A DNA stretch of 64,000 nt from NCBI GenBank assembly GCA_016201275.1, contig JACQDB010000116.1, positions 27,276 to 91,275 of the forward strand, read 5' to 3'. Positions 2,646 through 62,370 of this stretch are shown here, piece after piece. The notes under the pieces were generated by a model. That model ran no database searches, was not told where the DNA came from, and saw only the letters and a program-made list of their open reading frames with translations. This stretch comes from Acidobacteriota bacterium. GTDB lineage: Bacteria > Acidobacteriota > Blastocatellia > UBA7656. Within the stretch, counting starts at the first letter, position 1. Each line of letters opens with the position of its first letter. The position numbers and the translations under genes are program-made.

Positions 2646-2920
2646 CCTCGACTTAGTACATTTTTCAGAGGCGAACCGAGCTTGCCAATCCCCCCGATGG
2701 CAATCGGGGGATGCTTAAAGCCCAACCCTACGCAACACTGCCAACGAGAAACGAATCCCCCCGATGGAAATCGGGGGATGGTTAAAGTCCAACCTTGCCC
2801 GAGGCTCAAGGCTGGACTTTAAGCATCCCCCAACTGCCGTTGGGGGGATTGCAAAAAAACTTTGCTTGCTTGGTGTGTAGGTAGGACTTTAAGCATCCCC
2901 CAACTGCCGTTGGGGGGATT
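2642..2920. repeat. Array A of palindromic CCCCC-GAT/AAC hairpin units
   Basis: Hairpins at 2691-2710, 2758-2777, 2827-2846, 2897-2916; first two forward, last two inverted; left edge has the CTCGACTTAGTACATTTTTCAGAGGCGAACC flank seen in arrays C and D. Confidence 0.8.
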
Positions 2921-2935
2921 CAGATGAATTGCCTC

Positions 2936-2999
2936 ACAACCCAGTCTAGTTGTGAGAGTCGAATGCGGCACAGCCGCACGCCCTGACTCTAGTAGTTAC
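2936..2999. repeat. Short copy of GTAAC...CCCAGTC palindromic element
   Basis: ACAACCCAGTCTAGTTGTGAGAGTCGAATGCGGCACAGCCGCA...AGTAGTTAC matches ends and core of the elements at 40005-40138 and 52997-53236. Confidence 0.5.
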
Positions 3000-6421: not shown

Positions 6422-6629
6422 AACTCTCCTTTTTGAGAAAGGCAAAAAGTAAAAAGGAAACAGGCCGAAGTAACGACGCAACAGCCTTCAGTCTGCTTCT
6501 TAGAAGGGCCGCACTTCATCCGCCAACCGCTTGATTATCTTCCACTCCGGCTCGATTTGGGTAGCAAATTTTCTGTCGGGCGGGACTCCGAGTGCTGCGC
6601 CGCTGAGAAGTTTATCAGCGGAGAGCCAA

Positions 6630-6750
6630 GACCGTTAAGCCATTTGCCTGAATCCCCCCAACGGCAGTTGGGGGATGGTTAAAGTCCAGCCTTGAGCATC
6701 GAGCAAGGTTGGACTTTAACCATCCCCCGCTTGCCATCGGCGAGATTGGT
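6630..6750. repeat. Array B, minimal (one forward unit, one degenerate inverted unit)
   Basis: AATCCCCCCAACGGCAGTTGGGGGATGGTTAAAGTCCAGCCTTGAGCATCGAGCAAGGTTGGACTTTAACCATCCCCC. Confidence 0.75.
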
Positions 6751-16624: not shown

Positions 16625-16728
16625 CTAGAGGGTGTCGCAGAAATGGATATTTTGCCTAGGTATTGTGTGCAATGGTTTGGCTATCTACAACATATAGATG
16701 GTTTCTGAAATTCTGCGACACCCTCTAG
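16625..16728. mobile_element. MITE-like element, 18-bp terminal inverted repeats CTAGAGGGTGTCGCAGAA
   Basis: 16625-16642 and 16711-16728 are perfect inverted repeats; flanking TA dinucleotides. Confidence 0.75.
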
Positions 16729-25829: not shown

Positions 25830-28800
25830 ATGAAGATATTAATCGGCAAAGCCAACTCTGGAAAAACTACGCGCCTGCTATTGCGTATAGCGGAAGTTGT
25901 CGGCAGCAATCGCGGCAAACCGATTTTATTGGTTCCCTCAAGCAACAGCGCTGCGGTGTTTCTTGAGCGCTTAACGCCGTTTCTGCCGCCGCAATTTTCC
26001 ACCCAAGCACAACCGTTGATTATCACCTTTCCCGCTTTTGCTGAAAAACTATTTCGTCATTTGGGCAAGCCTTATGCCTTGCTGTCAACCATTGAGCGGC
26101 AGCGCATTTTGCAAAGCATCATTGCCGGATTAGCCGAAGAAAAGGCGCTGGAATATTTCGCCAACAACGCCGATAAACCCGGACTGTGGCATTCGCTGGC
26201 GAAGTTTATAGATGAGCTATGGAACAGCGGCACGGATGCGGCGGCCTTCGCAAAGGTGGCGCAGGGCGGTAGTAAAAAAGATGCTGACATCGCCAGAATT
26301 TTCCGCCGCTATGAAGCAAGGTTGCAACAGCGCCGCGTGATGGATGGCGAAAGCGCGCCGTTTTTTGCGCTTCAAGCCTTGCAGTCAATATCCGGCGCGA
26401 CTTCTCTTGAACCTGAAAAATCGCTGCAAAAGTTGCAGCAGGATTTTCCGTTGGTGGTTGCCGATGGCTTCGATTTTTTTACTGCGGTTCAGGTGCAGTT
26501 GTTGTCCACGATCAGCGCCCTTGGCATAGAAACCGCCGCCGCCTTCACCTATGAAGCCGAGCGTGCGGTGCATATGTGGCAACAGCCAACCCACCAACGC
26601 TGCAAACAGGAAGCGGCTGAGTTTCTGTTTTGTGAGGCTCAACCCGGCTCCCGCATCGCCCAGGTCGCGGCGCATTTGATGGACGATGCAAAACCAGAAT
26701 CTGATAACGAGACTGAAGACGTAGAGCGCGAGGGTGTAAAGGCGCGAGCTAAGATTACTGCTGGAAATGAACCGAGCCTTGAGCCTGAACCGAGCGTTGA
26801 ACAAGAACTGAGCATTGAGCATGAAGCGAGCGTTGGGCATGAACTGAGCCTTGAGAATGAACTGAGCGTTGAGCATGAAGCGAGCGTTGAGCACGAACCG
26901 AGCCTTGCACAAGAGCGCTTGGCCGATCAATGTACGGGCGACCACAGAGGGTCGCCCCTGCGTCAAGGGGCGACCCTCTGTGGTCGCCCGTACAAGCAAG
27001 CGATAACTGAACTAGCAGGGCGAATTTTATCACCCTCATCAACCAGTCCGAGTGACCAGAAGGGCGCAGCGACGATGCAAATCGTTTCGGCGGCGGATCG
27101 TGCCGGTGAAGTGCGCGCCGTTGCCAGAGAAATCAAACGGCTGGTCTTGGAAGAAAAAATTTCGCTTGATGAGATAACCATTGTTTGTCGTTCCTTGAAT
27201 CTCTACGCTGATCCGCTTGAGCGAGTGTTTGCGGAATGCGCTGTTCCGCTTGAACTCGACAATCAATTGCCGCTTGGCGAAAACCCTTTCATCGTTGCCT
27301 TGCTGCGGTTGGTGAATCTTCACGCCGAGCAGTTTCAACGGCGAATGGTGATAACCTCTTTGCGCTCGCCGTACTTTGATTTTTCAGCCTTCGGGTTTGA
27401 CGACGACCGGATAAATTTATTGGAGCAGATTTCGTTTAGTGAACGAATCATTCAAACCGAAGCGCAATGGCAAGAGGTGCTAGGAAATCCCCCCCAAAGC
27501 CCAGCCGTTGATGCTTATGAACCCGCTTCGCCCGTGATTGATGCACCCACGAAATCAACTCTGCTGACCAAACTCAATCAGTTTTTTACAGCGGTAAGTT
27601 TTTCACTCAAAGCGACGAGAGCAATTTTCGTTCGCCAAATTCTCGCACTGTTGAACACCCTGAAAGTCGAAGAACGCATGGCGCAAAGCGATCAGGCAAA
27701 AGTTGATGCAGCGGCGTGGCAAGCTTTTTCTACTCTTCTACAAACACTAGGCAAAGAAACTCCTCTGGAAACTTTTGCTCAAGCCAAGGCAATCAACGCC
27801 GTGCCGCCGCCAGGCCGGTTTGAAACATCGCCTCAAGAAATTAACTGGTCGGCATTTTATTACGAGTTGGAGAGCGCCGTGGCAGCGACTTCGTTCCGTC
27901 GTCCATCGCCAATGACGGCAAAGATTTTGGTGCAGGAGGCGCACAATTTACGTCCGCGAAAGTATCAAGCGATTTTTGTGATCGGCTTAATCGAAGGCGA
28001 ATTTCCTAAGAAATCCACCGAAACTACGCCTTACACGCTGGCCGAAAAAAAACGCTTGCGCCAACAGGGCATAGATTTTTCGGAGACCATCAACGATGCC
28101 GGAGCCGACTTGACGCAATTTCATAAAGCTCTGACTCGCGCTGCCGAACGCCTTTATTTAAGCTATGCGCGCACCGATTCTTCGGGCGGTGAGTTGCTGA
28201 AATCTTATCTTCTAGATGAAGTTCTCGCGGTCGCAAATCCCGCAGACCTTCATCAATTGCATCTGGAAAAACAGAATGAAAGAACAGCTATACATTGCGC
28301 CGCGTCGCTTGAAGAACTGGCGCTCATCGCCGCTGCAAGGTGGCGTCATCACCATGCAAAACGGCACGAGGCGCACGCTGCTCTTTTCGCCGACCCGCTT
28401 GCCGATATGCTGGCGGAAAATTTACCGAGTTGGCCTGCAACACGGCGTGGTCTGGCCGTAGAACAGCGCCGTCTCTCCGGCTTGGAAGTTGGCGCGTATG
28501 GCGGCGTATTTGACGACCGCATCGTTGCCGGAAAAATCAACGCGATCTTTAACGAAGACTATACCTGGAGCGCCACCCGTTTGAATGATTACGGTATCTG
28601 TCCGTTTCGCTTCTTCGCCAAACATCTGTTGAACCTCGCGCCGATCAAAGAACCCTCCGTAGGTTTTGCCGCCGAAGGTTTAGGCATCGCTTATCACAAA
28701 ATTCTTGAAAAAACTTTTCGCGATTTACGGAACAAGGGTCTGACCTTGAGCGCCGCGACGTTTGATGAGGCGGTCCAGATTGCCTACGACCACTGTGAAG

Positions 28801-29423
28801 CGACGCTGCAAAAGATGCTCGACGAGCGCCTGATTCGCCAGAGCGCTTTATGGGATTTCGAGAAGAGCGAAATGAAAAAACGCCTCCATAATCTGCTGCG
28901 CGCCGAAGCCCTTTGGCAAAGCGAACAAACCATCGAGCCGATTCGCTTTGAGCAAAGTTTCGGCCAAGGCGGACAAGCGCCGCTCACTATCGAAAGCGCC
29001 GATGGGAGCATCAAGATTCGCGGCAGCATAGATCGCATTGATAAGCAGGGCGATGGCCTGGCGGTGATTGATTATAAAACTTCACGCTCGCCAATTAATG
29101 CCAAAGATGCTCTCGAAGGGCGCAACCTGCAATTACCGATTTATCTGCTGGCGGCGCAACGTGTACTGAAACTTGGGGAAGCGGTGACCGGCGGTTATTA
29201 TCTGCACATCTACAGTTGTAAAAAAGGTTCGGAGTTTCCGAACAAAATGATGGACATGAAAACCATCACGGAAAAAGCCGAAGCCTTTATACGTGAGTAT
29301 GTGAGCAAAGCGCGCCGCGCCGAATTTCCGATTCAACCGAATCAACAACGCTGTCCGCCGTATTGCGAATTCGATTCGCTGTGCCGCATACAATCTTTAG
29401 GCGCGGCAGTCGAAGAAGAATGA
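25830..29423 (+). CDS. AddB-like PD-(D/E)XK nuclease/helicase-like protein
   Basis: MKILIGKANSGKTTRLLLRI; CPFRFFAKHLLNL; GSIDRIDKQGDGLAVIDYKTS; C-term CPPYCEFDSLC (FeS-type Cys). Confidence 0.85.
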   Translation: MKILIGKANSGKTTRLLLRIAEVVGSNRGKPILLVPSSNSAAVFLERLTPFLPPQFSTQAQPLIITFPAFAEKLFRHLGKPYALLSTIERQRILQSIIAGLAEEKALEYFANNADKPGLWHSLAKFIDELWNSGTDAAAFAKVAQGGSKKDADIARIFRRYEARLQQRRVMDGESAPFFALQALQSISGATSLEPEKSLQKLQQDFPLVVADGFDFFTAVQVQLLSTISALGIETAAAFTYEAERAVHMWQQPTHQRCKQEAAEFLFCEAQPGSRIAQVAAHLMDDAKPESDNETEDVEREGVKARAKITAGNEPSLEPEPSVEQELSIEHEASVGHELSLENELSVEHEASVEHEPSLAQERLADQCTGDHRGSPLRQGATLCGRPYKQAITELAGRILSPSSTSPSDQKGAATMQIVSAADRAGEVRAVAREIKRLVLEEKISLDEITIVCRSLNLYADPLERVFAECAVPLELDNQLPLGENPFIVALLRLVNLHAEQFQRRMVITSLRSPYFDFSAFGFDDDRINLLEQISFSERIIQTEAQWQEVLGNPPQSPAVDAYEPASPVIDAPTKSTLLTKLNQFFTAVSFSLKATRAIFVRQILALLNTLKVEERMAQSDQAKVDAAAWQAFSTLLQTLGKETPLETFAQAKAINAVPPPGRFETSPQEINWSAFYYELESAVAATSFRRPSPMTAKILVQEAHNLRPRKYQAIFVIGLIEGEFPKKSTETTPYTLAEKKRLRQQGIDFSETINDAGADLTQFHKALTRAAERLYLSYARTDSSGGELLKSYLLDEVLAVANPADLHQLHLEKQNERTAIHCAASLEELALIAAARWRHHHAKRHEAHAALFADPLADMLAENLPSWPATRRGLAVEQRRLSGLEVGAYGGVFDDRIVAGKINAIFNEDYTWSATRLNDYGICPFRFFAKHLLNLAPIKEPSVGFAAEGLGIAYHKILEKTFRDLRNKGLTLSAATFDEAVQIAYDHCEATLQKMLDERLIRQSALWDFEKSEMKKRLHNLLRAEALWQSEQTIEPIRFEQSFGQGGQAPLTIESADGSIKIRGSIDRIDKQGDGLAVIDYKTSRSPINAKDALEGRNLQLPIYLLAAQRVLKLGEAVTGGYYLHIYSCKKGSEFPNKMMDMKTITEKAEAFIREYVSKARRAEFPIQPNQQRCPPYCEFDSLCRIQSLGAAVEEE
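26769..26912 (+). repeat. 18-bp tandem repeat, 8 units, inside AddB-like CDS
   Basis: Units GAACCGAGCCTTGAGCCT / GAACTGAGCATTGAGCAT / GAAGCGAGCGTTGAGCAC etc. encode E-[PLA]-S-[VLI]-E-[HQPN]. Confidence 0.9.
26931..26994. repeat. Perfect palindrome, 29-bp arms, 6-nt loop, inside AddB-like CDS
   Basis: TGTACGGGCGACCACAGAGGGTCGCCCCT-GCGTCA-AGGGGCGACCCTCTGTGGTCGCCCGTACA, translated as TGDHRGSPLRQGATLCGRPY. Confidence 0.95.
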
Positions 29424-40004: not shown

Positions 40005-40138
40005 GTAACTATCCAGCCACTGCTTGCAGCTGTGCAGCGAAAAGCAACACCAGTCTAGCGGAGAGTCCGAGACCCTCCGCACCTCAAAGCGGCACCGCCG
40101 CACTGCATTCAACTGTCACAAGAAAGCTGGGAAATTAC
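40005..40138. repeat. GTAAC...CCAG palindromic element, 134 bp copy
   Basis: GTAACTATCCAGCCACTGC ... CTGTCACAAGAAAGCTGGGAAATTAC with internal GCGGCaccGCCGC. Confidence 0.6.
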
Positions 40139-46392: not shown

Positions 46393-46979
46393 CTAAGCTC
46401 GACTTTGTACAATTTCAAATTGAACCACACCAATCAAGCGCTGACATTGCGGTGCGCGCTTGGAATGATTGAACCTCACCTCAACAAGATGAGGGGCAAT
46501 AATTCCAAGGGTTGAAAAAGCCTATAAAATCAGGCTACTTCGCCTCTGAAAAACCTAGCAATGGAGAGCCGAGGCAGTGAGGCAATTCGTCTGAATCCCC
46601 CAACGGAGAGCCGAGGCGGTGAGGCCATTCGCCTGAATCCCCCCAACGGTAGTTGGGGGATGCTTAAAGTCCTACCTACACACCAAGCCAGCAAAGTTTT
46701 TTTGCAACCCCCCCAACGGTAGTTGGGGGATGCTTAAAGTCCAGCCTTGAGCCTCGGACAAGGTTCGACTTTAACCATCCCCAACTGCCGTTGGGGGGGA
46801 TTCGTTTATCGTTGGCAGCGTTTCGTAGGTAGGACTTTAAGCATCCCCCAACTGCCGTTGGGGGGATTCGTAGATGTTGCGCGGCGTTTTGTAGGTTGGA
46901 CTTTAAGCATCCCCCGATTGCCATCGGGGGGATTGGCAAGACTGGTTCGCCTCTGAAAATGTACAAAGTCTAGTTAAGC
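46393..46979. mobile_element. Array C: TIR-bounded array of palindromic units
   Basis: CTAAGCTCGACTTTGTACAATTTC at left, GAAAATGTACAAAGTCTAGTTAAG at right; hairpins at 46640-46659, 46710-46729, 46779-46796, 46845-46864, 46911-46930. Confidence 0.75.
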
Positions 46980-52996: not shown

Positions 52997-53236
52997 GTAA
53001 CAACCCAGTCAGTGCTTGTGGCTGTGCCGCTTTGATGTGCGGAAAGGGCTACGTCTTTCCGTAAACTGCGTTCCCCACTCTCGCGGCTGCGCCGCCCAGA
53101 GGCTTTGCCGCCAAGCTTTTCTGCGGCGCAGCCGCGAACAAGGAGAGCCAGCCTACGGGAGAGTCGCAGACTCTCCGCACCTCAAAGCGGCACAGCCGCA
53201 CAGCATTCAACTCTCACAAAAAGGCTGGGAAGTTAC
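52997..53236. repeat. GTAAC...CCCAGTC palindromic element, 240 bp copy
   Basis: GTAACAACCCAGTCAGTGCTTGTGGCTGTGCCGC ... GCGGCACAGCCGCACAGCATTCAACTCTCACAAAAAGGCTGGGAAGTTAC. Confidence 0.65.
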
Positions 53237-61997: not shown

Positions 61998-62370
61998 ACT
62001 AAGCTCGACTTTGTACATTTTTCAGAGGTGAACCAGCCTTGCTAATCCCCCCGACGGCAGTCGGGGAGGCTTAAAATCCAACCTACAAAACGCCGCGCAG
62101 CCTCAACCAATCCCCCCGACGGCAGTCGGGGATGCTTAAAGCCCAACCTACGAAACGCTGCCTACGATAAACCAATCCCCCCGATGGAAATCGGGGGATG
62201 GTTAAAGTTCAACCTACGAAAACGCCGCCAAAGCTCAACGAATCCTCCCGATGGAAATCGGGGGATGGTTAAAGTCCAACCTTGCCCGATGCTCAAGGCT
62301 GGACTTTAACCATCCCCCAACTGCCGTTGGGGGGATTGCAAAAAAAAATTGTACAAAGTCGAGCTAAGTA
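61998..62370. mobile_element. Array D: TIR-bounded array of palindromic units
   Basis: CTAAGCTCGACTTTGTACA at left, TGTACAAAGTCGAGCTAAG at right; hairpins at 62049-62066, 62114-62131, 62178-62197, 62245-62264 (forward), 62314-62333 (inverted). Confidence 0.82.

Follow-up and report, generated by a model that had tools for sequence, protein, structure and literature searches.

REP hairpin arrays as cargo of small TIR-bounded transposons in a Blastocatellia genome

Two hairpin arrays enclosed by the same terminal inverted repeat (TIR) raise the question of whether such arrays are mobile DNA and which transposase would move them. They lie in a 64-kb window, the whole stretch of DNA that was analysed (G000:C22:27276-91275), within the 6.84-Mb, 162-contig genome G000 of the class Blastocatellia, Acidobacteriota. 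The first-pass annotation had read both arrays, C and D, as bounded by a 19-bp TIR that included CTAAG. The shared termini were found where it had placed them (C, 46393-46978; D, 61999-62368), but the boundary was wrong, as the outer 5 bp constitute a direct target duplication and the TIR proper begins with CTCGAC. The duplication was mistaken for part of the inverted repeat because the target consensus, CTWAG, is nearly palindromic.

Element C spans 576 bp from TIR to TIR (46398..46973, minus strand), with end 2 on the left and end 1 (TTTTCAGAGGCGAACC) on the right. Its left TIR, CTCGACTTTGTACA (46398..46411, plus strand), adjoins the target duplication CTAAG (46393..46397), and its right TIR, TGTACAAAGTCTAG (46960..46973, minus strand, one mismatch), adjoins the right duplication TTAAG, which also carries one mismatch (46974..46978). 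The fixed backbone (46412..46553, minus strand) is composed of the end-2 subterminal part and a palindrome, and extends up to the internal copy (46532..46552) of a direct repeat of ~22 bp, the terminal copy of which is situated at 46939..46959. Between these two repeats lies the REP cargo, arranged as ++ followed by --- (46636..46934, HMM scan). Element D, of 360 bp (62004..62363, plus strand), has end 1 on the left and is flanked by exact copies of CTAAG (61999..62003 and 62364..62368), with its cargo arranged as ++++- (62044..62337, HMM scan). The difference in length had been ascribed to unit number, an explanation that failed, since the HMM scan found five units in each; the shorter length of D reflects the absence of the fixed end-2 backbone segment. 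Across 45 complete elements of the genome, unit number correlated with element length at r = 0.66, with about 57 bp per unit. An ORF check of the interiors of C and D detected no reading frame of at least 100 aa. The window also contains a truncated copy, A (2647..2937, plus strand), with a left TIR (CTCGACTTAGTACA) and four REP units (++--), its right part missing where another repeat starts, and an internal remnant, B (6593..6750), composed of two REP units and adjoining element-specific sequence without a TIR.

When the whole genome was searched for the 14-bp end CTCGACTTTGTACA, as the first-pass annotation had proposed, 88 forward and 87 reverse copies were obtained at no more than one mismatch, and the reversed control gave 0; within the 64-kb window, five matches at up to three mismatches were found versus 0.01 expected. 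Retrieval of most genomic TIR sites yielded the 45 complete TIR-to-TIR elements, 360-759 bp in length. Two longer TIR pairs, L083 (1,448 bp) and L110 (1,091 bp), were dropped, both being false pairings. The family comprises approximately 90 copies in G000. The figure is rough because contigs break off at these elements: many copies are only a few hundred bases or less from a contig end, so that the repeat itself is what interrupts the assembly.

The search for target duplications, likewise proposed at the outset, revealed an exact 5-bp duplication in 27 of the 43 evaluable elements (of 45 complete), while shifted controls gave 0/2,640 and no duplication of another length, from 3 bp upward, was found across these 43. 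Element L039, which sits at the junction of two other repeats, carries GTTAG on both flanks, and a paralogous empty site at L100:731-662 preserves the uninterrupted junction with a single GTTAG (89% over 70 bp, only ~14 bp of it on the left side). With TIRs, a target duplication of constant length, and a small size without a transposase gene, the hairpin arrays are non-autonomous transposons (MITEs). The earlier idea of a mobile element that is non-autonomous and carries an expandable array of hairpins was thus borne out by the exact 5-bp duplications, the ~90 copies, the constant backbone and unit numbers from 1 to 7, as well as by the empty site and an insertion sequence (IS) with the same target, described below.

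Several other repeats occur around these elements. A second repeat family, palindromic and with termini resembling TAGAGGGTGTCGCAGAAAT, is present at 16628-16726 and 2543-2640 of the window, is possibly an IS630/Tc1-type MITE, and often has the REP-bearing MITEs at its edge. A third dispersed repeat (CCAG...GGAGAGTC...CACCTCAAAGCGGCAC...) is found at 40050-40138, at 53148-53236 and from about 2938 onward, where it apparently truncates array A. At L105:956-1714, a REP-bearing MITE flanked on either side by CTATG is inserted at the centre of yet another palindromic repeat (AATTTCGTAGCTCCTATG / GGAGCTACGAAATT), and at L055 and L104 other palindromic repeats are nested in or beside such MITEs (TATAGCGGTTTGC..., TATATGCGCGGC...), indicating layered insertions. 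The window further contains an 18-bp tandem repeat (26767-26914) within a 1,197-aa ORF (25830-29423).

According to the hairpin-unit HMM, all 45 elements carry REP units, 203 in total and 1-7 each, most commonly in the layout +++--, while shuffled sequence gave 0. The units end in CCTAC and are palindromes with the GTAG-type foot of REP/REPIN sequences. Strict unit matches numbered 409 in G000 and 1 in the control, and part of them were inspected. The stem pairs covary, one pair for example being G-C in 65 cases and A-T in 54. This compensatory variation could also be claimed for a selected regulatory or structural array (a terminator, RNA-stability or supercoiling site) whose mobility is only historical, and such roles have been hypothesised for REPs (PMC3733652). 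We consider that explanation very unlikely, given that the copies range from intact through decayed to truncated, as expected for mobile DNA without a fixed role, and that compensatory change is also expected from recognition of the hairpin by a transposase. Integron attC sites were a further candidate and were informally set aside.

All REP clusters examined in G000 turned out to be MITE copies, their remnants, or the flanks of a gene encoding a fused tyrosine transposase. Four clusters (L236-L239), together with window array B, had been candidates for REP arrays without TIRs and were rejected as decayed, truncated or contig-end copies of the element. No REP unit was detected in 400 kb of G000 DNA without listed TIR sites; this sample was drawn away from those sites and therefore gauges REPs outside the elements only, not their overall density. 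Within the class, REP units were present in 14 of 162 genomes, and the loci read there lacked the MITE TIRs.

The fused gene, which encodes two Y1_Tnp domains, is intact in G000 at C80:24020-24850 (L147:1518-2348), with REP units directly on both sides, heads inward. Besides G000, two-domain Y1 genes flanked on both sides by REPs were found in G128, G006, G003, and G119, and the same flanking was seen in the Acidobacteriota records L201, L202, L204, L205, and L206, although some of the Acidobacteriota homologues in these records are the same genomes as in the former set, seen via two collections. The gene was present in 8 of the 162 genomes, 6 of which were among the 14 bearing REPs (hypergeometric p = 3e-6). 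Because REP units flank the two-domain Y1 genes on either side and co-occur with them in genomes, the units are the REPs of that transposase group. The more distant homologues L207, L208, L209, and L211-L213 showed no match to the REP unit; weaker homologues of the gene were observed in Pirellulaceae, Planctomycetota, and Myxococcales records.

Across seven aligned homologues, the catalytic tyrosine (Y122---Q126) is retained in domain 1, which lacks the HUH pair, and HUH (H207, H209) is retained in domain 2, which lacks Y---Q; an overlapping set of eight homologues gave the same invariant positions. Two Y1_Tnp (PF01797) stretches were identified by Pfam in each of the three homologues tested, and the AlphaFold model of the fused protein (mean pLDDT 79.6) contains two Y1-type folds whose best PDB matches are IS200/IS605 transposases. 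From this division of motifs we infer that both halves would form a single composite active site. Under the published RAYT class motif definitions (PMC6006769), canonical class 2 RAYT/TnpA-REP proteins have a single Y1 domain and the motif Y---NP, and the fused protein departs from both. The accessible part of the 2018 survey sets unusually long proteins aside as fusions or annotation errors and contains no description of the split-domain arrangement.

Over ~113 bp, the cargo of the MITEs shares 87-90% identity with the REP pair adjoining the C80 gene, including the spacer of that pair; the layout of the cargo, (+)n...(-)m, is that of the arrays flanking the fused gene, minus the gene. This shared layout and the intact gene in G000 are what would be expected if the fused tyrosine transposase itself spread the arrays and the TIRs were an incidental conserved array end. 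Such a reading conflicts outright with the 5-bp duplications, and we regard it as extremely improbable: transposases of the IS200/IS605 group have neither TIRs nor larger target duplications (PMC2817692), whereas the MITEs show both. The 400-kb sample free of REP units and the occurrence of REPs in other genomes without MITE TIRs likewise argue against it.

The sister-genus genome G007 contains a complete IS of 1,455 bp (L112:1-1455) with ends CTCGACTTTATCCA and a 450-aa transposase assigned to the IS701 family (profile NF049999, 299.5 bits versus a cut-off of 170). The genome G000 has its own copy at L142:1419-2748, of 1,330 bp, with CTTAG on both sides and 46% protein identity to the G007 transposase; it is the sole nearly full-length copy in G000, and the C-terminus of its transposase is damaged. 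Further IS ends adjoining CTTAG/CTAAG are located on C62, C93, C66, C30, and C143. The IS and MITE ends agree at 12 of 14 positions and differ at two, with the terminal hexamer CTCGAC in common and the same CTTAG target; further inward, the subterminal sequences do not resemble each other. At L181, one MITE end, CTCGACTTTATACATTTTTCAGAGGCGG, is intermediate between the MITE and IS ends. The search for a transposase with matching ends, which the first-pass annotation had suggested, led to this IS701-family IS with the same target and most of the end; an IS copy bearing the exact MITE end was not found, so that the partner assignment is one that we infer. The IS701-family IS is the likely partner of the MITE.

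The IS resembles the IS701 family in its transposase profile and in its length in G007, and differs in target duplication, which is listed as 4 bp for the family (PMC6352166) and is 5 bp at the one G000 IS copy with both ends and at the MITEs. This discrepancy, together with the two mismatches in 14 bp, the missing exact-end IS and the unlike subterminal sequences, would fit a MITE moved by another, possibly extinct, transposase family that duplicates 5 bp, the match to the IS701 ends then being convergence. The chance of this appears low to us, considering that the G000 IS has the same 5-bp duplication, CTTAG, the same hexamer and the same residues at 12 of 14 end positions, and that the intermediate end at L181 exists. 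Taken as a whole, we hold it highly probable that each array is a copy of one DDE-type MITE that is non-autonomous, is most likely mobilised in trans by an IS701-family transposase, and captured a REP/REPIN array before it was itself amplified.

Regarding the origin of this combination, the backbone was detected in only two genomes of the class, G000 and, once, G002, in contrast to the REPs found in 14 of 162. When sequences were joined across the ~22-bp direct repeats that bound the cargo, a core of 169-171 bp was obtained for almost every one of the 37 elements keeping the internal repeat. TIRs unlinked to hairpin arrays, which the first-pass annotation had named as evidence against its reading, were absent among the 45 complete pairs in G000, and a REP-less relative does occur in another genus: the MITE of 139 bp in G002 matches the first 53 bp of the core at 79%. 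These observations suggest that an older REP-less MITE backbone captured a REP/REPIN array, now lying between the ~22-bp repeats, perhaps by way of two MITE copies forming a composite, perhaps by insertion. The REP-bearing MITE would then have amplified to roughly 90 copies, most likely moved in trans by the IS701-family transposase, with 5-bp duplications at CTWAG. Its REP units belong to a RAYT/IS200-type tyrosine transposase in which two Y1 domains are fused. A doubly mobile element, in which the DDE-type transposase spreads the MITE and the fused-dimer tyrosine transposase adds, removes or reorders REP units in trans, is conceivable, though we consider it doubtful.

When compared to known systems, the units resemble those of REP/BIME/REPIN and RAYT in their GTAG-foot palindromes (CTAC on the other strand), inward heads and flanking Y1 gene (PMC2817692, PMC3116915). 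Unlike those systems, the units described here travel inside a TIR-bounded DDE-type element, and the linked gene encodes a fusion of two Y1 domains between which the motifs are split, with Y---Q instead of Y---NP. The BOX elements of Streptococcus (boxA-boxBn-boxC) are likewise small and interspersed, with fixed end modules and variable internal hairpin units, but these units are not described as tyrosine-transposase REPs (PMC3049150), and the likeness is one of layout only. The BrickBuilt MITE of Porphyromonas gingivalis also has a leader, a tandem array and a tail (PMC4596501); its array is a spacerless 23-nt minisatellite, the copies number 19, and the accessible part of that report mentions no transposase of the array's own (PMC4596501). 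MITEs carrying arrays are therefore already known from BOX and BrickBuilt, and a DDE-type MITE with a captured REP/REPIN array appears to be new; a literature search, incomplete in coverage and not in itself proof of novelty, returned no report of a MITE carrying a REP array.

REPs have been puzzling because their transposases seem incapable of self-transposition and because the route by which REPs spread is unproven. The fused Y1 protein, with its histidines in one half and its tyrosine in the other, offers a natural and testable form of the transposase dimer that has been postulated to work on REPs in pairs. In G000, nearly all REPs lie inside a second, TIR-bounded transposon, which provides a clear alternative route of REP spread. 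As the REP array is cargo inside a MITE, one selfish DNA family rides in another; if the element were in fact doubly mobile, a REP lineage would survive as a rider on another transposon.
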